Source of the DNA: Hydrogenophaga sp. PAMC20947
Lineage (GTDB): Bacteria > Pseudomonadota > Gammaproteobacteria > Burkholderiales > Burkholderiaceae_C
Direction of reading: 5' to 3'
Assembly: GCF_004795855.1 (NCBI RefSeq)
Contig: NZ_CP039252.1
Coordinates: forward strand, 2,170,001 to 2,234,000
DNA: 64,000 nucleotides
The position numbers and the translations under genes are program-made. Shown here in pieces: positions 17,732 to 27,239 of the stretch (its first letter is position 1; every line of letters starts with the position of its first letter). The notes under the pieces are model-generated. The model did no database searches. It was not told the DNA's origin and saw only the letters and a list, made by a program, of their open reading frames with translations.

Positions 17732-17760
17732 ACACCCCCCCGCCCCCTAGAATGCTTCAC

Positions 17761-19635
17761 ATGAGCTCCAACACCCCCAGCCACACCGCCAACAACGGCC
17801 ACAAAAATAACGCTGCCGACGCCTCTGGCGACGGCGAGCACAAGGTCAGCAACTTCCTGCGCCAGATCATTGAAAAAGACCTCGCGCAAGGCACCTACGC
17901 CGAGCGCCGCTGGGCGGGCGTTCCCGGTGGGGCCGACATTCAAGGCAAGGGCCAGCCAGACCCCGCCAAGATCCGCACCCGCTTCCCCCCCGAGCCCAAC
18001 GGCTACCTGCACATTGGCCACGCCAAAAGCATCTGCATCAACTTCGGCCTGGCCGAGGAATACGGCGGCGTGTGCCACCTGCGCTTTGACGACACCAACC
18101 CCGAAAAAGAAGACACCGAATACGTCAACAGCATCATCGATGCCGTGAAGTGGCTGGGCTTCAGCTGGAACGGCGAGCCGGGCAAAGCGAACACCGAAGC
18201 CCTGCCCTACCAGGCCAGCGACTATTTCGATTTCATGTTTGAGTGCGCGCTGTATTTGATCGGCGCCGGCCTGGCCTATGTGGACGAGCAAACCAGCGAA
18301 GAAATGCGCCTCAACCGCGGCGACTTCAACACCCCCGGCAAAGACAGCCCCTTCCGCGCCCGCACCCCCGCCGAAAACCTCACCCGTTTTCAGGAAATGC
18401 GCGATGGCAAGCACGAAGACGGCTCCATGGTCTTGCGCGCAAGAATAGACATGGCCTCGCCCAACATCAACCTGCGCGACCCCGCCATCTACCGCGTGCG
18501 CCGCGCCACCCACCACAACACCGGCGACAAATGGTGCATCTACCCGATGTACACCTTTGCCCACCCGATTGAAGACGCGCTCGAGCAAATCACCCACAGC
18601 CTGTGCACGCTCGAATTCGAAGACCAGCGCCCGTTTTACGACTGGTTGTTGGAAAAATTGTGCGAAGGCGGCCTCTTCGCCAGCCCGCCCCCGCGCCAAT
18701 ACGAATTCGCCCGCCTCAACCTCACCTATGTGATCACCAGCAAGCGCAAGCTCGCCCAGCTCGTGTACGACAACAAGGTCAACGGCTGGGACGACCCGCG
18801 TTTGCCCACCATCGTGGGCCTGCGCCGCCGCGGCTACACGCCCGAGAGCCTGAAGCTCTTTGCCGAGCGCATTGGCGTGACCAAGAGCGATTCGTGGATC
18901 GACTACGCCACGCTGGAAGGCTGCCTGCGCGAAGACCTGGAAAACAAAGCCCACCGCGGCATGGCCGTGCTCGACCCGGTCAAGTTGGTGCTCACCAACT
19001 GGGCAGAAGTCTTCGGCAGTGACGATTACACCGAAACCTGCGAACAACCCGCCCTGCCCCACAGTGCCATTGCGGAGGGCACCGAGCCGCCACCCGCCCG
19101 CCAATTCCAGATTGGCAAAGAAGTGTGGATCGAGCGCGAAGACTTTGAAGAAGTGCCGCCCAAGGGCTACAAACGCCTCTTTCCAGGCAATGTCGTTCGC
19201 CTCAAAGGCGGCTACGTGATCGAGTGCATTGGCGCTGGCGCCAAGACCGAGGAAGGCCAAGTGATCGAGGTACACGCCAAAGTGATCGCCAACACCAAGA
19301 GCGGTACAGCTGGCGCCGACAGCGTGAAAGCCAAAGCCGCCATCACCTGGGTGAGCGTGGCCGACGGCGTGCAAGCCGAAGTGCGCCTGTACGACCGCCT
19401 GTTCTCAGACCCGAATCCCGATGCGGGCGGGAAGGATTTCATTGAAGCGCTGAACCCTGACAGCTTGAAGGTCGTCACCGCGTTCGTGGAGCCTTCGCTG
19501 GCTTTGGCCCAGCCCGATCAGAAGTTCCAGTTTGAGCGGTTTGGGTATTTTGTGGCCGACCGGGTGGACCATGTGGCGGGTAGCAAGCCTGTTTTTAATC
19601 GGGTGACGGGGTTGAAAGACAGCTGGGGAAAGTGA
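17761..19635 (+). CDS. glnS: Glutaminyl-tRNA synthetase
   Basis: Charges tRNA-Gln with glutamine in the cytoplasm. Class I motif HIGH is at residues 84-87 (PNGYLHIGHAKS) and the KMSKS equivalent is VITSKRKLAQL. The C-terminal anticodon-binding beta barrels run from about residue 350 on. 624 residues, longer than the ~554 of E. coli, partly through an insert ahead of the Rossmann fold (WAGVPGGADIQGKGQPDPAK, residues about 51-70). Start at ATG 17761 (MSSNTPS); the ATG at 17752 is possible. Its stop overlaps the start of the next, unrelated AT-rich gene by one base. Confidence 0.96.
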   Translation: MSSNTPSHTANNGHKNNAADASGDGEHKVSNFLRQIIEKDLAQGTYAERRWAGVPGGADIQGKGQPDPAKIRTRFPPEPNGYLHIGHAKSICINFGLAEEYGGVCHLRFDDTNPEKEDTEYVNSIIDAVKWLGFSWNGEPGKANTEALPYQASDYFDFMFECALYLIGAGLAYVDEQTSEEMRLNRGDFNTPGKDSPFRARTPAENLTRFQEMRDGKHEDGSMVLRARIDMASPNINLRDPAIYRVRRATHHNTGDKWCIYPMYTFAHPIEDALEQITHSLCTLEFEDQRPFYDWLLEKLCEGGLFASPPPRQYEFARLNLTYVITSKRKLAQLVYDNKVNGWDDPRLPTIVGLRRRGYTPESLKLFAERIGVTKSDSWIDYATLEGCLREDLENKAHRGMAVLDPVKLVLTNWAEVFGSDDYTETCEQPALPHSAIAEGTEPPPARQFQIGKEVWIEREDFEEVPPKGYKRLFPGNVVRLKGGYVIECIGAGAKTEEGQVIEVHAKVIANTKSGTAGADSVKAKAAITWVSVADGVQAEVRLYDRLFSDPNPDAGGKDFIEALNPDSLKVVTAFVEPSLALAQPDQKFQFERFGYFVADRVDHVAGSKPVFNRVTGLKDSWGK

Positions 19636-20696
19636 TGGCAACCAAACCACGACTGAACAGCAGCTCCAAGCGAGAGAGAAGCTATTGGGATCCCGTCTAT
19701 AACCCAGGAAAAATCACTTCAAATTTTATTGAATTCGACTGGAATACACAAAACTTCCCATCAATTAGCAAAGCCGTTTGCCATTCAGATCAGCTAAAAA
19801 CAAAGGTTGGCCAGTACGCATGGCACACAATCATCAACACAATCTTTGAAACTTGCGATTTCGAGGGCACCTTCGACTTCATAAATCTAACCTTCAGAAA
19901 TTGCACATTCAAGAATTGCGACTTCAAGACAGCGATATGGAATGATGTGAAATTTTCTCAATGCACATTTGACGTAGCCTCCATATCCACATCAAAATTC
20001 ATTGACTGTCAGTTTAATCAGTGTGCCTGGAAGAAAATTGGCATCTCATCAAATGAAATGCGATTTACAAAAACAATAATAACTAATCCGCATAGTTTTA
20101 TTAGAGCCGCATCTACAAACATGGACAAGGATCTCCTAAGTCAATTTAGTACATCCCCCGACTACCAAAGATATCGCCTCGAAGGCACAAAATCGAAGGT
20201 TGCTCGAATGTTGCTCACCAGCATTCAAGATCAAGGTGATGACGATGCATACTTTGAAGCTGTAAAAGCGCACACCACCCAAGCACTAAAAGCAAAAATA
20301 TCAAATCAAGAATTCCAACGAAAGCAGTCAAAATCCGTTTCACGGAAATTGCTTCATGGTGGAATTGAAATTGCACTTCAACTCGAGCGCGCAGTAACAC
20401 AAATATCAGGGTCAATAAATGGATGGGGAGGAAAGCTTGGTAGAGCGATTGTCGCGGGAATAATATTGATGTCGATTTTTGGAATAATCTACTCAATTAC
20501 TGGCACCTTCCAAGGCATTCCTCAATCTATTCTAGCAGCGATAGAGATCACTCTCTTAGTTGGGTATACAAAATATGCATCATTGACCAGCTCTCTACCT
20601 ATGCAATCACTAATTGCTGTCAATATGCTTCTTGGCTTATGGTGGTACACAATATTCGTGCCAACAATAATAAACCAAGTAAATAGAATAAAATGA
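19635..20696 (+). CDS. Pentapeptide-repeat protein with channel-like membrane domain
   Basis: 353 residues, strikingly AT-rich compared with glnS. Residues about 70-135 are pentapeptide repeats (series such as TFRNC TFKNC DFKTA, KFIDC QFNQC), which fold as a right-handed beta helix. A charged helical linker follows. The C-terminal ~90 residues have two hydrophobic helices (GRAIVAGIILMSIFGIIYSI and IAVNMLLGLWWYTIFVPTII). Between them the segment ILAAIEITLLVGYTKYASL resembles the pore loop of two-TM K+ channels (T-x-x-V-G-Y). The start ATG overlaps the glnS stop by one base; the stop overlaps the next gene by four. Probable membrane effector of a two-gene module; the function is inferred. Confidence 0.75.
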   Translation: MATKPRLNSSSKRERSYWDPVYNPGKITSNFIEFDWNTQNFPSISKAVCHSDQLKTKVGQYAWHTIINTIFETCDFEGTFDFINLTFRNCTFKNCDFKTAIWNDVKFSQCTFDVASISTSKFIDCQFNQCAWKKIGISSNEMRFTKTIITNPHSFIRAASTNMDKDLLSQFSTSPDYQRYRLEGTKSKVARMLLTSIQDQGDDDAYFEAVKAHTTQALKAKISNQEFQRKQSKSVSRKLLHGGIEIALQLERAVTQISGSINGWGGKLGRAIVAGIILMSIFGIIYSITGTFQGIPQSILAAIEITLLVGYTKYASLTSSLPMQSLIAVNMLLGLWWYTIFVPTIINQVNRIK

Positions 20697-21382
20697 TTAA
20701 CATTTCATCCCTCATCATTTACGGCAGTTGCGCAAGAGGCACCAATACATCCACGTCAGATGTTGATCTATTATCGATCACATCGGAAGGGGAGTACCGA
20801 ATGGTTGTGCAAAACAAGATTAATCTTGCCCTTTACCCAAGAAGTCTAGCTATAAAGATGGCAAAGAACGGTGAGCTCTTCATGCTACATATTGTCCGAG
20901 AGGGTCGCCCATTAATTGACTTCAACAACGATTTTGAGTTTTTACAAAGTAATTTCGAGTTCAAAAAATCCTATAGCAAAGAAATTGAGGACGCTACGAA
21001 TCTCGGCGGTGCGATTCTCCAGTTCGGCTCAAATGTAAAAAATAAATCATTGGTCAACAAAAGACTGGCTTGGTGCGTCAGAACCATCACTATCGCCAAG
21101 GCAGCCGAACAAAAACTTTCCATATTTTCGGCCGTTGGTCTGAGTGAGTTCCTTCATGACAAATCGATATTAGATCTCATTGAGAACAAGAACAACCTCT
21201 CTGAAACTCCAAAAATTATGAAGAAGTTCGAAAAATTTCTTCATACTCATGGAAGCTCTACCAGAATCCTCTCAGCCAATTCCCTACTAGAGTATAAGTC
21301 GCTATTCAACACAAATTCGAACATCGTCGGATCGAAGACAATTGATGCATTCATCAGCGATAGAGAGTTTGACACCTACTAA
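20693..21382 (+). CDS. Pol-beta-type nucleotidyltransferase
   Basis: 229 residues, AT-rich. The N terminus carries the nucleotidyltransferase motif: Gly11-Ser12 in IYGSCARG, then Asp23 and Asp25 in SDVDLL. The third acidic residue, usually on a following strand, is not obvious; that stretch reads INLALYPRSL. A motif FMLHIVREGRPLID follows. The C-terminal two thirds are helical and unfamiliar. Soluble, no signal peptide. It is coupled by ATGA to the channel-like gene, so the two should act together. Members of this superfamily make nucleotide signals or modify RNA or protein; which applies here is unknown. 195 AT-rich bases follow. Confidence 0.8.
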   Translation: MINISSLIIYGSCARGTNTSTSDVDLLSITSEGEYRMVVQNKINLALYPRSLAIKMAKNGELFMLHIVREGRPLIDFNNDFEFLQSNFEFKKSYSKEIEDATNLGGAILQFGSNVKNKSLVNKRLAWCVRTITIAKAAEQKLSIFSAVGLSEFLHDKSILDLIENKNNLSETPKIMKKFEKFLHTHGSSTRILSANSLLEYKSLFNTNSNIVGSKTIDAFISDREFDTY

Positions 21383-21577
21383 TCACATTTCATCCAGAAT
21401 CCGCGGCTTCATAATTTATGAAGCCAGAAGCATTATTGAAAAAATTAGATTATTAATATGAGTGAATTTTTGCATTTTGCCTCTTGAATATTATTTAAAA
21501 TAAAACTCAAGGTAGATACATGGGGAACTAATAAAGGTTAGTTTGATTTAATTTTCAGATAAGGAGGAAACCAATAA

Positions 21578-22306
21578 ATGGCAAAATTCTTAACGACCAC
21601 TGGCACCAACTACCAACTGGAAGAGTTGATCAAAGGTGCATCTGAAAGGCTGATTCTGATCAGCCCGTTTCTCAAGCTCAACGACCGCATGAAGGAGTTG
21701 CTGGAGGACAAGAACCGCCTGAAGATTGATGTGCGCATCGTCTACGGCAAAAGCGAGTTGCAGCCACAGGAAATTGAATGGCTGCGCGGGCTCAGCTTCG
21801 TGCGCACCAGTTTCTGCAAGAACCTGCACGCCAAGTGCTACATGAGCGAAGAGCTCTGCATCATCACCAGCCTGAACCTGTATGAGTTCAGCCAGGTGAA
21901 CAACAACGAGATGGGCGTGCTGATCCAGCGCAGCGAAGACGGCCAGCTCTACAAAGACGCCTACGAAGAAGCCCAGCGCATCATCCGCATCAGCGATGAA
22001 GTGCGCATTTCGCTGGAGCGCGTCTCTGCAACCGCTGCCGCGACCACTGCGCCGACCGCTACAGAGTCCGAGAAGGACAGCGAAACAGAAAGCAGCGGCG
22101 ACAAGCTCACCTCATCAAAAATCGCCGCCAAGCTGGGCATGAAAACCGCCCAGTTTCTGGATCGCGCAGCATCGCAAGGCTTCTTGGCACAGGAAGGCGA
22201 CAAACACGTGATGACCCCCAAGGGCGAACAAGCAGGCGTCGAGTTCGTGGCCAAGTCCCGCTTCGGCCCCTACTTCCTCTGGCCGCAGGATTTTCATCCG
22301 GTTTGA
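21578..22306 (+). CDS. PLD/HKD phosphodiesterase-like protein with C-terminal winged-helix-like domain
   Basis: 242 residues with normal GC. Residues 1-135 are a single phospholipase-D-type domain: ERLILISPFLKLND, then the HKD motif in NLHAKCYMSEELCIITS and NLYEFSQVNNNEMGVLI. A low-complexity Ala/Thr/Glu linker (about 148-172) joins a C-terminal part, SSKIAAKLGMKTAQFLDRA to RFGPYFLWPQDF, which looks like a small DNA-binding or adaptor domain. A strong AAGGAGG stands 10 bases before the ATG. Such HKD proteins can be nucleases (Nuc or restriction type). Found inside the accessory island next to the NTase pair; participation in defence is inference. Confidence 0.82.
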   Translation: MAKFLTTTGTNYQLEELIKGASERLILISPFLKLNDRMKELLEDKNRLKIDVRIVYGKSELQPQEIEWLRGLSFVRTSFCKNLHAKCYMSEELCIITSLNLYEFSQVNNNEMGVLIQRSEDGQLYKDAYEEAQRIIRISDEVRISLERVSATAAATTAPTATESEKDSETESSGDKLTSSKIAAKLGMKTAQFLDRAASQGFLAQEGDKHVMTPKGEQAGVEFVAKSRFGPYFLWPQDFHPV

Positions 22307-22347
22307 CATCATTCATCAATATCAAATGCACGACTGAAGGTTCTACG

Positions 22348-22587
22348 ATGGAAGTTGCGGAGATAGAGGATCAAGATTGGCAGCGACTCCCTGCACCTTG
22401 GGTTTCAGAAAAAAGCAATATTACAAACCTAGTCGTCCGGGTACGTCCTTCGCAGAGATGGCGACGGGTGTATCTGTATTCAGGAGAGCAGGGATCAACA
22501 ATAAATGGGAAGAAAATGTTCTGCTACGTAAAGACCAAGGACGACATTTGGACTGAGGTTGTTCTTCCTAGTGGGGTTTATCCATAG
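22348..22587 (+). CDS. Small hypothetical protein
   Basis: 79 residues from the ATG at 22348 (MEVAEIEDQDWQRL), with GAAGG 8 bases ahead. A TTG at 22303 overlapping the previous stop would add 15 residues. It is beta-rich with a WRRVYLYSG and KMFCYVKTKDDIW core. I do not recognise it. It follows the HKD gene by about 40 bases and may be co-transcribed. It ends 10 bases before a decayed transposase remnant. Confidence 0.5.
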   Translation: MEVAEIEDQDWQRLPAPWVSEKSNITNLVVRVRPSQRWRRVYLYSGEQGSTINGKKMFCYVKTKDDIWTEVVLPSGVYP

Positions 22588-22596
22588 AAAGTCCTT

Positions 22597-22810
22597 GGGG
22601 TCAGATACCGTCTTGAAAGTCAAGCCGATTCCCCAAGAAAGTGGCATCAAACACGGTGCGTGACTTGAGCACCCCGTAGATCTGGCGGATCAACTTGTGC
22701 ATGCAAGCCGCGATCACCGCCTTGGGTGCCAGGCCATCGGCTTTGAGGCGCTCGGCGAACACTTTCATCAACGGGTTGTATTTCAGCGCCACCATCGCGG
22801 GCTCGAAGTG
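22597..22810 (-). mobile_element. Decayed IS110-type transposase 3' end (copy A)
   Basis: Reverse-strand reading gives NPLMKVFAERLKADGL, APKAVIAACMHKLIRQIYGV and LKSRTVFDATF. This matches the C-terminal helical part of IS110/IS1111 transposases. The N-terminal DEDD catalytic part is absent. The end toward 22597 carries GGGGTCAGATACCGTCTTGA, shared by the other copies. It is the longest remnant in the window. An open frame runs to 22885 but its first ~25 codons do not look transposase-like. Confidence 0.75.
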
Positions 22811-22986
22811 CGCGTAATAATTGAGGTTAGACTCGAATTGTTCTACAACAAACTTTACCTTCGATATAGGGGCAATTTTCATCAAAGATACCTATAGACC
22901 CGACATTCTCAGCATGAACTTTTCCAAATCTGATACGGGAAAAAATTTATGATAAAAAACCTCTTCAGCTGCTACCTCGCAAGAGC

Positions 22987-23502
22987 ATGAAATCCAATAG
23001 CTCATTGAAACTATATTTCGGCTTGTTTTGCTGCTTGACGCTGCTGGGAATTTTTACCAAACAGTGGATGGGCGAAGGTGATATCCCGAATCTTGATGAG
23101 CTTCACCAAATTGAGGGAAAGATTGAAACCGTCTGGGCTTCTGGAAAATATGGCAATACGATCAGAATCAAGCTGGAAAATGATCCCAGATATTTCGTGT
23201 ACGGTTCAATTTCGGGAGAGATTGGATTGGTAAAGAGGCTAGCTCTAGTCGGATCAACTGCAAAACTGAATTTTCGCCCTTCAAATACACACACTCCCAT
23301 ATTTGACGACAATACATACCACACAATATATCAACTCACGATCGACGAAAAGCTCGTACGGGCTTACAGCCAAATAGCTCGTAAATATAGAGAAAACGCA
23401 TCAGGCAGTGGAAGATTCGCCATCATTTTGGCGATCCTCGCATTTTCCATTTTTAGATCAATCGTTAAAGAAACGCGCACTCGGGGTCGGATACCGTCTT
23501 AA
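22987..23502 (+). CDS. Hypothetical membrane-anchored protein, C terminus altered by a transposon remnant
   Basis: 171 residues, AT-rich. An N-terminal hydrophobic helix (LYFGLFCCLTLLGIF) is followed by an extracytoplasmic beta-rich part (IEGKIETVWASGKYGNTIRI) and a second helix near the end (GRFAIILAILAFSIF). No family recognised. The last seven residues, TRGRIPS, and the stop codon are encoded by the transposase-remnant sequence starting at 23483, so the native C terminus has probably been replaced. Possible small envelope protein; expression not certain. Confidence 0.6.
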   Translation: MKSNSSLKLYFGLFCCLTLLGIFTKQWMGEGDIPNLDELHQIEGKIETVWASGKYGNTIRIKLENDPRYFVYGSISGEIGLVKRLALVGSTAKLNFRPSNTHTPIFDDNTYHTIYQLTIDEKLVRAYSQIARKYRENASGSGRFAIILAILAFSIFRSIVKETRTRGRIPS

Positions 23503-23570
23503 AAGTCAAACCGATTACTTGAGAAAGTGATATCAAACGCGGTGTGAGATCTGAGCACACCGCAGAAAAT
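23483..23570 (-). mobile_element. IS110-type remnant (copy C)
   Basis: About 88 bases matching the outer end of copies A and B: GGGGTCGGATACCGTCTTAA, then ATCAAACGCGGTGTGAGATC and GAGCACACCGCAGA. It contains the stop codon of the 22987 gene. Too short to code for anything. Confidence 0.7.
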
Positions 23571-23592
23571 TGGGTGCAGATTCTAATTGAAT

Positions 23593-23613
23593 AATTGAGG
23601 TCAGACTCTAATT
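23593..23613. repeat. GGTCAGACTC motif, left copy
   Basis: AATTGAGGTCAGACTCTAATT, an imperfect inverted repeat. The near-identical AATTGGGGTCAGACTCCAATT lies at 23952-23972. The two flank the small membrane-protein gene at 23686-23928, as cassette boundaries might. Confidence 0.55.
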
Positions 23614-23685
23614 AATTTGCATGATGTACACCCCAACTTAAAACTGACAACGGCCGCCCTCGCACAACACTCAATTCCTTAGATC

Positions 23686-23928
23686 ATGAATACGCAAAAG
23701 CTGCTCTATGGCATTGCAGGAGGTCTGATTGCTTTCCCCTTTGGACTTGCCGTTGGCGGTTACATGGTAGAAGCTGAGTTCTGGGTGTCTCTGATGGGAA
23801 TAGAATGGGTAGCCTACAAGTCAGCCGTTTCGGGCGTTGTAATGATTGGTTTTGCCCTCGGCATTTCTCTCTGTTCTCAAACAGGAAAAGCTCCAACTAA
23901 GGAGGACCAAGTAGACTCTTTTTACTAG
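23686..23928 (+). CDS. Small two-helix membrane protein
   Basis: 80 residues. Two hydrophobic segments (LLYGIAGGLIAFPFGLAVGG and YKSAVSGVVMIGFALGISLC) and a short polar tail ending VDSFY. Glycine-rich helices suggest packing into oligomers. No family recognised. It is bracketed by direct copies of a GGTCAGACTC motif and has lower GC than the core genome, so it is probably acquired. Confidence 0.6.
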   Translation: MNTQKLLYGIAGGLIAFPFGLAVGGYMVEAEFWVSLMGIEWVAYKSAVSGVVMIGFALGISLCSQTGKAPTKEDQVDSFY

Positions 23929-23951
23929 GGAATCAGAAAATCCAAGCAGAG

Positions 23952-23972
23952 AATTGGGGTCAGACTCCAATT
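23952..23972. repeat. GGTCAGACTC motif, right copy
   Basis: AATTGGGGTCAGACTCCAATT with perfect AATTGG/CCAATT arms. Pairs with the copy at 23593-23613 in the same orientation. Confidence 0.55.
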
Positions 23973-23981
23973 GCCTGAAGT

Positions 23982-24310
23982 TCACGCTACAAATCGCGTC
24001 GCAAACTGCCCATCCCCACTCAAGCCAATGATCAGCCGCTGCGTGGCCCGGGTCGCCCCCACATAAAACAGCCGCGCTTCATCTTTCTCGCTCTGGTTCG
24101 CCGCAGGCATGTGGCCCACGCCCACCAGCGCCACCACCGGAAACTCCAGCCCTTTGCTCACGTGCATGGTCAAGACCTTGATGGTGTCGGCGGCGGGGTA
24201 GAAGGTGCCTGAGCCTTTGCGCACATGGTGCGGCAGGCCGTGCTGTTTCAGCGCCCTGCCGCAGGCTTCCATCTCGCTCCATGTGCGGCAGATCATGGCC
24301 TTTTCGCCCA
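23982..24310 (-). pseudogene. Truncated duplicate of the NERD-helicase 3' end
   Basis: About 105 codons nearly identical to the last codons of the helicase at 25419-27239 (MICRTWSEMEACGRALKQ, HVSKGLEFPVVALVGVG, GATRATQRLIIGLSGDG). By eye about 14 of about 308 bases differ, roughly 95% identity. Homology stops at 24303-24310, just inside the frame. Upstream, unrelated codons and then the small gene at 24332 take over. The helicase core (Walker A, DExx) is missing, so it cannot be active. A short open frame runs to 24350 but has no convincing start. Confidence 0.85.
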
Positions 24311-24331
24311 CTAATTGGCTTCCCGGTGCGC

Positions 24332-24571
24332 TCAATCCACCTTCTCCCATTTGTTATTCGGATTGCTGTAGAGAAACGGTGCGCCGCCTTCACGACTGGT
24401 TGGTTTAACCAAGAGTCGAAATCGTGAGCCGACAGGAGCCGATTCGCGCATAGCCCGCGAGCATTCGACACGCATGCCCGTAGGAAACTCCTGACCATCG
24501 ACCGGGCGCACGCGAACCTTCGCCGATGACGATTCGCCGCCCGAATAGAACGTCTCAACAATCACGTACAC
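24332..24571 (-). CDS. Small hypothetical protein
   Basis: 79 residues, GTG start at 24571 with GGAGG close upstream. A second GTG at 24565 gives a more usual spacing. The sequence (VIVETFYSGGESSSAKVRVR, SRFRLLVKPTSREGGAPFLY) looks like a compact beta-rich protein. I do not recognise it. It lies between the NYN-LOTUS gene and the helicase fragment on the same strand, so the three could be read as one transcript. Confidence 0.6.
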   Translation of the reverse strand: MYVIVETFYSGGESSSAKVRVRPVDGQEFPTGMRVECSRAMRESAPVGSRFRLLVKPTSREGGAPFLYSNPNNKWEKVD

Positions 24572-24630
24572 AAGGCCTCCTTCGAGATCAAATAGCTAGA
24601 GTCATCGCAAAGAAACGTCTTCGCAAGGGG

Positions 24631-25383
24631 TCAGCGAACAACTCGCTTCATTCGAATCTGCATGTTGTTCAGCACAACCCCGTCGGGTCGACTGAACGGC
24701 ACATCTTTTGTCTCAACGTAGCCCAAAGCCCGCACCAGATCGCTCAGTTTCTTGAATCCAAAGTTGCGGGCATCGAAAGATGGGTCAATTTTTCCGATGT
24801 AACTACCCACGCCTCCCAGCGGCGCCCAACCGTCTTCTCTCGCATTCGCATCTATCGCAGCGATCACCAGTGGTTGAAGCTCCGCAAGCTCAGTTGTGGG
24901 CTCTGCACTGGGCTCGGCCTCAGGTGTTTCCACAGGCTTTTGTTTAAGAATTTCCGTATAGATGAACTTGTCGCAGGCTGCCACAAAAGGCTCTGGCGTG
25001 TGGCGCTCCCCGAATCCATATACAGCCAAGCCGGCCTCACGAATTCGAGTGGCCAGGCGCGTGAAGTCGCTGTCAGATGACACCAAGCAGAAACCATCAA
25101 CGAGACCCGCGTGCAGCACGTCCATTGCGTCGATGATGAGCGCCGAGTCCGTCGCGTTCTTGCCTGTCGTGTAGCGGAACTGCTGCATCGGCTGGATCGC
25201 GTTGGCGTGGAGCACGTTCTTCCACTGCTGCAAATTGGGCGTTGTCCAGTCGCCATAAGCCCGCTTGATGGTGGCGGTGCCGTAGCGCGACACTTCCGAC
25301 ATGAGCTCGTGGACCAGCGATGCCTGCGCGTTGTCGGCGTCGATCATCACCGCCAGCCGCTCGTTGTTTGGCTTTGTTGCCAT
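24631..25383 (-). CDS. NYN-domain ribonuclease-like protein with LOTUS/OST-HTH domain
   Basis: 250 residues. The NYN (PIN-like) domain spans about 8-150: first acidic pair in VMIDADNAQ, TDSALIIDAMD and the SSDSDFTRLA strand, all keeping the expected Asp residues. A short acidic linker leads to a C-terminal OST-HTH/LOTUS domain (GWAPLGGVGSYIGKIDPSF, FKKLSDLVRALGYVE), an RNA-binding fold. The pair of domains matches bacterial limkain-b1-type proteins, probable metal-dependent RNases. It is read after the NERD helicase with a 35-base gap. A link to phage or plasmid defence is inferred only from context. Confidence 0.88.
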   Translation of the reverse strand: MATKPNNERLAVMIDADNAQASLVHELMSEVSRYGTATIKRAYGDWTTPNLQQWKNVLHANAIQPMQQFRYTTGKNATDSALIIDAMDVLHAGLVDGFCLVSSDSDFTRLATRIREAGLAVYGFGERHTPEPFVAACDKFIYTEILKQKPVETPEAEPSAEPTTELAELQPLVIAAIDANAREDGWAPLGGVGSYIGKIDPSFDARNFGFKKLSDLVRALGYVETKDVPFSRPDGVVLNNMQIRMKRVVR

Positions 25384-25418
25384 CTGCGTTTTCTCCCCTT
25401 TTGTATTTTTCGAATCGA

Positions 25419-27239
25419 TCAGGCCGCGAAGCGGTTCGCAAACTGCCCATCCCCACTCAAGCCAATGATCAGCCGCTGCGTGGCCCGGGTCGCCCCCACG
25501 TAAAACAGCCGCGCTTCGTCTTTTTCATTCTGGTTCGCCGCCGGCATGTGGCCCACGCCCACCAGCGCCACCACCGGAAACTCCAGCCCTTTGCTCACGT
25601 GCATGGTCAACACCTTGATGGTGTCGGCGGCGGGGTTGAAGGTGCCTGAGCCTTTGCGCACCTGGTGCGGCAGGCCGCGCTGCTTCAGCGCCCGGCCGCA
25701 GGCCTCCATCTCGCTCCACGTGCGGCAGATCATGGCCATGTCGCCCCAGGCGTGGCCTTCCTGGTGGGCGGCGCTGAGCTGGTCCACCATTTGCGCCACT
25801 TCTTCGTGCAGGCTGGGCAGGCGAATGATGATGGGCGCTTCGCCATCGCGCCCGCCGCTCACGGGCTTGAGCAGCGGAATGCCGTCTTCGTCTTTATCTT
25901 CGGCGGTCAACAGCTCAGCGGCGATCAAGTTGGCCGTTTGCAAAATCTGCCGGGTGTTGCGGTAGTTGATCTTGAGGATGGTGGTGCGCCCCTGAGCCTG
26001 TATGCCCACGCTCTTGAAGCTGAACTGTTTGCTGCGGCTTCGCTCGTAAATGCTTTGCGCATCGTCGTAGAGCACGAGCAGGCTGTTGGTCGTGGGGTCA
26101 ACCATTTGCGTCACGAGCTTGAGCCATTCGGGCGCGAAATCGTGGCCTTCGTCGATGAGCACGGCCTGGTATTGCCCGCTGGGGATCTGCTTGCGGTCCA
26201 CGCCTTCGATCACGCGCTGCACCATGTCGTCGAAGAAGACATTCTTCGGCAGGTTGTTCGCCGGCAGGGTCTGCCCAAACGCCACCAGTTGATCGCGGCA
26301 CCATTTGTGGAAATGCCGGGCGTGCACCTGGGCTGCCAGGCCTTTGGCCTCCATCACGCTCGCCAGCTTCACGGCCAGCGGCTCGTTGTAGCAAAGAATG
26401 AGAATGGGCTTGCTTGCCGCCGTGTGCGCCTTGGCCAGGTATTCGGCGCGGTAGCCCAGCACCATGGTTTTGCCCGACCCCGCCACGCCATGGATCACCC
26501 GGTGTCCATCGCCCAGACTGCGTGCCAGCTGCTCTTGCTGCAGGTCCATCACGCGCATGATGCTGGGCATTTCGGCTTCGGGGTCGTTGTCATCAAACAG
26601 GCTGCCCTGATCTGGCACCCGCACTTCAGGAAACATGTTCCAGCGGGCGCGGTCAATCTGCGGCAATGACATCACGCTGCCAAACGCATGGGGAAACATG
26701 TTCCACAGGCGCTGCTGGAAGGCTTCAACGTCGACCGATTCCGTCATCTCGTCGGAACAGATCACGTAATGCGGCTCAATGGCCTCACCCAGGCCCGCCA
26801 TCTCGAATTGCTTGCGGGTGATGCGCGTGAACACCACGCCATGGCCCCAAGGGAAGGCCAGCTTGCCTTGGTGGGCGCCGCGGGGCTGAACCAGCTGGGG
26901 GTCGCGCTCCAGCGCGTTGACCACCTGAATCGCGCAATGGCGGGCCTGCGCCAAGGGGTTGATCACCACCTTGGCCTGGCCATCGGGCGTTATCTCCCAC
27001 ATCTGCCGCGTGGCCCGCTGCACCGTCTCCAGGCGCCAGTCTTTGGTTTCCAGAATCAGCAAGCCGCGGCGCGGATGCAAAACCACAAAATCGGGGTGCG
27101 TTTGTTTGGGACCAATGGGCACGTCGTACCAAAGCAGATAGTCGTCATCCAGCTTTTGTTCCAGCCGCTCGGCCAAGCGCCGCTCCCCGCTGGTCATGCG
27201 AGAAACACAACTGCCCAATGCCGGTATCAGCGTCGCCAT
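25419..27239 (-). CDS. NERD-domain SF1 (UvrD-like) helicase
   Basis: 606 residues. The N-terminal NERD nuclease-like domain has Asp50, Glu64 and Lys66 in HPDFVVL and LILETKDW, an intact PD-(D/E)xK set. The SF1 motor follows: Walker A GVAGSGKT at 251-258, Walker B Asp363-Glu364 in LIDEGHDF, QSIYE, then KINYRNT. Motifs V/VI are TMHVSKGLEFPVVAL and YVGATRATQRL. Predicted ATP-driven DNA translocase with nuclease activity. It heads a leftward cluster with the NYN-LOTUS gene; its own 3' end is duplicated beyond that gene. NERD helicases occur in mobile and defence loci, but its role here is not proven. Confidence 0.92.
   Translation of the reverse strand: MATLIPALGSCVSRMTSGERRLAERLEQKLDDDYLLWYDVPIGPKQTHPDFVVLHPRRGLLILETKDWRLETVQRATRQMWEITPDGQAKVVINPLAQARHCAIQVVNALERDPQLVQPRGAHQGKLAFPWGHGVVFTRITRKQFEMAGLGEAIEPHYVICSDEMTESVDVEAFQQRLWNMFPHAFGSVMSLPQIDRARWNMFPEVRVPDQGSLFDDNDPEAEMPSIMRVMDLQQEQLARSLGDGHRVIHGVAGSGKTMVLGYRAEYLAKAHTAASKPILILCYNEPLAVKLASVMEAKGLAAQVHARHFHKWCRDQLVAFGQTLPANNLPKNVFFDDMVQRVIEGVDRKQIPSGQYQAVLIDEGHDFAPEWLKLVTQMVDPTTNSLLVLYDDAQSIYERSRSKQFSFKSVGIQAQGRTTILKINYRNTRQILQTANLIAAELLTAEDKDEDGIPLLKPVSGGRDGEAPIIIRLPSLHEEVAQMVDQLSAAHQEGHAWGDMAMICRTWSEMEACGRALKQRGLPHQVRKGSGTFNPAADTIKVLTMHVSKGLEFPVVALVGVGHMPAANQNEKDEARLFYVGATRATQRLIIGLSGDGQFANRFAA

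Follow-up and report, generated by a model that had tools for sequence, protein, structure and literature searches.

Hailong is an anti-phage system of two proteins, HalA and HalB, which was reportedly first described by Tan et al. (Nature 2025). The present work concerns a gene pair that lies directly behind glnS in a stretch of 64,000 nucleotides of Hydrogenophaga sp. PAMC20947 (NZ_CP039252.1, positions 2,170,001 to 2,234,000; hereafter, the window), and which we regard, with a probability of roughly 0.93, as an intact Hailong system. In the relevant passages of three papers (PMC12657230, PMC12265719, PMC13275509), DNA oligomers made by HalB keep HalA off until phage exonuclease activity releases it, with the nucleotide signal being an inhibitor, not an activator, of the effector. 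According to these papers, HalB would produce single-stranded deoxyadenylate oligomers without infection, these would bind HalA and hold its membrane pore shut, and the exonuclease activity of a phage would strip them off, upon which HalA would open, ions would leak and the infected cell would be stopped.

The cyclic-oligonucleotide-based anti-phage signalling system (CBASS) resembles the pair in combining a nucleotidyltransferase with an effector, and the type VII toxin-antitoxin system MntA/HepT in being a two-gene pair with a minimal Pol-beta transferase. Panoptes/MISS (mCpol plus a 2TM-beta effector) differs from Hailong in using a cyclic nucleotide rather than single-stranded DNA, and its enzyme and effector belong to unrelated families. 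It nevertheless shares with Hailong an inverted logic, in which a nucleotide signal keeps a membrane effector off, as outlined in the passages concerned of two papers (PMC12657230, PMC12657218).

The halA-halB pair and its proteins

The pair consists of the following two genes:

halA, 19635..20696, + strand: 353 amino acids (aa); pentapeptide beta-solenoid, helical linker and two-helix, pore-like membrane segment
halB, 20693..21382, + strand: 229 aa; Pol-beta nucleotidyltransferase with a GS-x9-SDVD motif

In line with the original prediction of two AT-rich coupled genes, both open reading frames (ORFs) overlap by four bases (ATGA), and their guanine-plus-cytosine (GC) content is 0.399 (halA) and 0.407 (halB), whereas glnS has 0.611 and the window as a whole 0.61. 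Moreover, halA touches glnS, with the stop codon of the latter and the halA ATG overlapping as TGATG.

Both proteins scored above the curated cut-offs of the Hailong families over practically the whole length of the profiles. HalA matched NCBIfam NF051894 with 346.7 bits (cut-off 250; E 1.4e-103; residues 13-351 on profile positions 1-338 of 338), and HalB matched NF051895 with 221.9 bits (cut-off 190; E 6.5e-66; residues 6-216 on positions 1-211 of 211). By sequence, the nearest solved structure to HalA was PDB 9nyi (E 3.4e-50), the title of which reads 'HalA in complex with oligodeoxyadenylate', and those matched by HalB were 9dbh (E 9.2e-31), 9dbj (1.9e-30) and 9dbi (1.4e-28), the last of which carries Ala at both Asp positions aligning with D23 and D25 of HalB. 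The pair, for which the original prediction knew of no named system, therefore does have a name.

The AlphaFold2 model of HalA (pLDDT 91.3, pTM 0.87) displayed the full-length HalA fold, i.e., a pentapeptide solenoid, a helical linker and a two-helix membrane segment, and aligned with 9nyi_A at E 3.2e-26 (TM 0.88/0.93, root-mean-square deviation of 1.9 over 341 columns); the second-best structural match only reached E 7e-5 and TM 0.12/0.18. Two hydrophobic stretches of membrane length (271-289 and 327-345) coincide with the C-terminal part of the model, where helices span residues 268-289, 295-306 (short) and 321-352. The pore-loop-like T-x-x-VGY stretch of the original prediction corresponds to T306-L-L-V-G-Y311, and T306, L308, G310, T312 and K313 are each conserved in at least 90% of 35 aligned HalA sequences; the description as a channel-like pentapeptide membrane effector was right. 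Matches of the model to Kv3.1 channels were weak (E 5.6e-3 and 1.2e-2, TM about 0.2), and a channel ancestry of HalA is thus no more than hinted at. Regarding HalB, the predicted Pol-beta nucleotidyltransferase with intact GS and DxD was confirmed by a Pfam Polbeta match of 31.8 bits (cut-off 26.9) and by the invariance of the catalytic residues G11, S12, D23 and D25 across 24 aligned sequences.

These profiles also bear on the CBASS-type logic that had been proposed for the pair, in which a cyclic nucleotide induced by infection would open the membrane effector. Although a nucleotidyltransferase does adjoin a membrane effector in defence-related surroundings, the enzyme exceeds the HalB cut-off, PADLOC assigned it, up to E 1, solely the candidate nucleotidyltransferase models PDC-M05A and PDC-S09 and none of a CBASS enzyme, so that it does not class as a CD-NTase, and the effector matches a HalA structure with bound oligo-dA. 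Furthermore, the signalling direction in Hailong is the opposite one, with the nucleotide reported as a brake on the effector in the passages cited above (PMC12657230, PMC12265719, PMC13275509). We therefore consider a CBASS-like system very improbable. Since PADLOC-DB 2.0.0 (2023) holds no HalA model and recognizes HalB through candidate models only, an annotation of that year would miss the pair.

Direct addition of nucleotides to the pentapeptide protein by the transferase, as a means of inactivating it in the type VII manner of MntA/HepT, is similarly improbable. HalB matched MntA weakly, with 26.7 bits, and the wording 'poly-dA adducts of HalB', which appears in the Hailong literature (in the passage concerned of PMC13275509), would suit such a reaction; however, this score lies far under the MntA cut-off of 60, the partner is not HepT-like, and the solved HalA contains a bound oligodeoxyadenylate, to judge from the title of the structure.

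The order of the genes is conserved as well, which was the neighbourhood check suggested at the outset. In all eight other loci for which both sides of the junction were available (six viral contigs, of which L147 and L148 are near-copies, the genome G940 and a Sulfitobacter plasmid), the two genes are adjacent and co-directional, with halA first, indicating that the pairing is not due to chance; a ninth locus, the viral contig L188, has halB at the contig end and was left out of this count. In IMG/VR, the pair was found on six distinct contigs. In G940, the two genes also overlap by ATGA, and HalA scored 230 bits, slightly below the cut-off of 250. Among 72,556 plasmid records, HalA was matched in one (Sulfitobacter) and HalB in 19, while a protein search yielded 25 HalB and 36 HalA entries, including those of the window. 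HalA above the cut-off was restricted to the window's own genome both in the family sample (1 of 299) and in the phylum sample (1 of 398). The closest other entries were 90% identical in the case of HalB and 57-58% in that of HalA. The 90% identical HalB (P0002) is encoded on a public contig of 2,700 bases; the nearest HalA being just 57-58% identical despite this, its HalA gene has possibly been cut.

Taken together, the scores above the curated cut-offs, the intact fold and active-site motif, the conserved gene order and overlap, and the position in a defence hotspot (see below) support an intact Hailong. Several points weigh against this interpretation. The mechanism is known to us second-hand, from the passages of other papers. 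The pentapeptide matches of HalA are below the Pfam cut-offs (Pentapeptide_4 at residues 69-133, E 8.3e-8, 32.6 bits, cut-off 38). HalA is just 29% identical to 9nyi in the structure alignment, and this copy could therefore differ in its trigger and in the use of dA. Finally, of the 67 genomes sampled from the genus, just that of the window had a HalB-like protein, and the pair is thus no fixed part of the lineage. The pair nevertheless keeps what the published mechanism requires, namely the GS/DxD motif, the solenoid with a two-helix membrane end, and coupled genes. If it is accepted as Hailong, this copy would be expected to function in the bacterium that carries it, and transcription of halA, whose start codon begins within the stop codon of glnS, would be constitutive and shared with glnS. 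Hailong having already been described, the pair is a well-preserved betaproteobacterial copy that is new to the position behind glnS; besides the low identity to 9nyi, it is the overlapping stop and start codons that set it apart from known Hailong.

The exchange site behind glnS

The surroundings count for more than the pair itself, and most of the interest lies in this site and in two groups of HalB relatives. The site extends over 19635-25418 of the window and is delimited or occupied by the following features in addition to halA and halB:

glnS, 17752..19635, + strand: glutamine--tRNA ligase, of the YqeY-fusion type to judge from how its relatives are named; bounds the variable site on the left
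PLD-like (HKD) protein somewhat similar to DrmC, 21578..22306, + strand: PLDc_2 32.5 bits, GC 0.561; adjacent to Hailong without belonging to it
Extra 3'-end copy of the NERD-UvrD helicase gene, 23982..24281, - strand: 93% identical to 25419-25718
NYN-OST-HTH protein, encoded between the helicase gene and its partial copy, 24631..25383, - strand: NYN 133 bits, OST-HTH 55.5 bits
NERD-UvrD helicase, 25419..27239, - strand, convergent to glnS: NERD and UvrD domains, right border of the variable site

The HKD phosphodiesterase noted beside the pair is indeed encoded there, and a three-part system with this PLD-like protein as a nuclease would be conceivable given its location on the same strand, 195 bases downstream, and its resemblance to DrmC (PADLOC E 7.3e-7, next to PDC-S69 at 1.1e-10 for the C-terminal part). 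Nonetheless, a PLD homologue was found at none of six other HalAB loci, and its GC content of 0.561 departs from that of the pair (0.40) and of the intervening gap (0.38-0.39), which makes a third component highly unlikely.

For the comparison of the site, the glnS tail was located in 54 of 67 genus genomes, and 44 genomes were analyzed, i.e., the DNA downstream of glnS from 43 relatives (L063-L065, L098-L137) and the window. GC content in the first kb behind glnS was below 0.50 in 24 of the 44 genomes, in contrast to the DNA 8-14 kb further on (mean 0.66, lowest 0.61; 37 genomes). When the 24 AT-rich genomes were compared pairwise over bases 20-1000 behind glnS, none of the 276 pairs matched in tblastx or blastn, whereas the glnS tails were alignable in all 276. 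On the right, 24 of the 44 genomes have a NERD-UvrD helicase gene, complete or as a fragment, that is convergent to glnS. In two of them, G1036 and G1041, the distance from its end to glnS is 18 and 50 bp, and we take these sites to be empty. In five genomes, including that of the window, a 3' fragment of the helicase gene precedes the full gene (G1042, G1076, G1034, G1053, G000); in the window, this copy matched helicase residues 499-606 with 92.6% identity in tblastn. Near-full second glnS tails occur nearby in three others (G208, G1049, G1043). These end-duplicates suggest that cargo was captured by recombination together with the ends of the flanking genes. No integrase was found at the site, although no systematic integrase search was made. 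In the genus, apparently Hydrogenophaga, the gap between the convergent glnS and helicase genes serves for the exchange of small AT-rich defence cassettes.

The nature of the cargo was assessed with PADLOC on 30 proteins from 24 genomes (29 of 53 listed proteins plus one from L065), which were chosen by size with their first residues already seen, so the choice was not blind; in three of these genomes (L063, L108, L120), the AT-rich part lies further from glnS. Matches at E 1e-5 or better were obtained for 20 of the 30 proteins, in 16 of the 24 genomes, and comprised AbiL, Thoeris/SIR2-like, TIR-NLR-like, GajA/AriA/OLD-like and PD-Lambda-2 proteins, type II methyltransferases, NsnA, HEC-01, PDC-S06, PDC-S15, PDC-S49, PDC-M60 and others. 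Some of them are weak or generic, such as the only match of L063 (GajB, 2.9e-6) and that of the second protein of L108 (DpdB, 3.1e-6). None of ten control proteins, encoded by 10 of the 11 genes listed 8-14.5 kb away, had a match, with about four gene families making this a thin control. The stretch that follows glnS is a hotspot for defence genes within the genus, in agreement with the expectation of a horizontally acquired defence pair in defence-rich surroundings. An essential tRNA synthetase gene marks the place at which unrelated small defence cassettes are exchanged, and offers a cheap route to unnamed systems.

Some further observations were made at this site. In G1051 (L100:329-2554), the first cargo ORF, which is NsnA-like, starts right at the glnS stop codon, as in the window, and cargo may have been wired to glnS read-through more than once. 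In G208, a gene for a 161-aa DUF6036/AbiEii-like transferase (L063:11931-12416) separates glnS from a duplicate of its own 3' end, and the same gene is found in G1049 (L108). To the right of the window pair, two repeat families (22595/23481/28493 and 22816/23590/23949) were noticed, and the repeats at 22595-23972 point to mobile-element remnants.

A three-gene relative of Hailong

The glnS site also led to a three-gene relative of Hailong. In G1078, it carries genes for a pentapeptide protein of 301 aa and a transferase of 205 aa, again with an ATGA overlap, which scored 35.3 bits against HalA and 40.1 bits against HalB, i.e., far under the cut-offs; profile comparison linked them to the HalA alignment at E 2.9e-12 and to the HalB alignment at E 8.3e-8. 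Relatives of this type were found on plasmids, on IMG/VR contigs and in three genomes of the class sample (G407, G506, G621). Chromosomes and plasmids as well as phage-like contigs carry the cassette, Bacillota included. Effector and transferase are neighbours at 21 distinct loci (L099:397-2226 and 20 further ones), and a third gene of about 100 aa comes next at 20 of them, or at 16 of 17 when the four loci that seeded its profile are set aside. The single miss, in Priestia, has an annotated 139-aa ORF at the position of the third gene. Several effectors are broken or partial, owing to an IS4 element in Salinivibrio, a contig end in L164 and, behind IS30 in Piscirickettsia, reduction to an 84-aa remnant; those of G506 and G621 contain a TAG inside the matched stretch.

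The third protein is conserved around GLSxxAIxxW, with F4, R12, N19, W38 and S68 invariant in 14 sequences, and matched nothing in Pfam or NCBIfam at E 0.01. The effector ends, like HalA, in a two-helix membrane segment, which in Priestia reads TTVGYGQ, close to the filter motif of potassium channels; its structure model and the match of the latter to HalA were both middling. When 40 transferases were placed in a tree, those of the three-gene type (15) were separated from the rest by a branch with a support of 100/100. NCBIfam (June 2026) held no name of its own for these proteins and PADLOC none for the G1078 pair, and no name for the cassette emerged from a limited literature search, so it may be named elsewhere. 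On these sequence comparisons, the cassette appears to be a divergent HalA-like/HalB-like relative of Hailong.

HalB relatives beside WYL regulators

A second group of HalB relatives was found on plasmids. Eight of the 19 HalB-matching records were examined, the other 11 being from Klebsiella (nine), Bradyrhizobium (one) and Yersinia (one). Besides the Sulfitobacter HalA-HalB pair, the remaining seven had no HalA match but a gene for a WYL-domain protein nearby, with a Pfam WYL match in all seven and above the cut-off in six. In five rhizobial or Bradyrhizobium records, the WYL gene is followed by halB on one strand, while it is divergent in Yersinia ruckeri and Klebsiella. Since the records left are mostly from Klebsiella, the number of independent HalB-WYL cases is small. 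Among the loci with halB beside a WYL gene (L048-L054, L180, L181), neighbouring operons differ and encode multiubiquitin/ThiF (L048), a CBASS-type phospholipase and transferase (L051 and L052, as annotated) or, as judged by eye, patatin-like and transferase proteins (L180 and L181).

DriD has been reported to bind single-stranded DNA in its WYL domain, as stated in the relevant part of PMC12340889, and PafBC likewise binds single-stranded DNA according to the title of its paper, while CapW and BrxR repress defence operons with their ligand left open in the sections consulted of their papers; the sections consulted differ from the present case in describing no HalB-type enzyme beside the regulators. 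DNA binding by DriD and the open ligand of CapW and BrxR led us to the guess that the HalB product is a WYL ligand, through which it may also control transcription. A limited literature search, judged in part from listings, retrieved no paper on the HalB-WYL pairing. Tentatively, and as a possibility rather than a probability, HalB-type enzymes could constitute a general DNA-oligomer tripwire with three or more outputs: HalA; the three-gene branch with its HalA-like channel protein, HalB-like enzyme and GLSxxAIxxW protein; and the HalB-WYL module, where a WYL repressor or activator would have the DNA product as its long-sought ligand and, once the oligomer is removed by a phage, would switch the CBASS, ubiquitin-like or other defence operons next to it. 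Were the oligomers indeed the WYL ligand, a pore and a transcriptional switch would both draw their guard signal from one enzyme, and the pairing makes it testable what the WYL regulators of defence islands sense.

Within the 398 phylum genomes, a sample unrelated to the plasmid records, HalB relatives were present in five, two with HalA (G000, G940), two with WYL (G698, G814) and one with a pentapeptide protein (G965). The last of these (L182:6818-8585) combines a further pentapeptide protein with a HalB-like transferase, and bears a weak likeness to both Hailong and the three-gene type.

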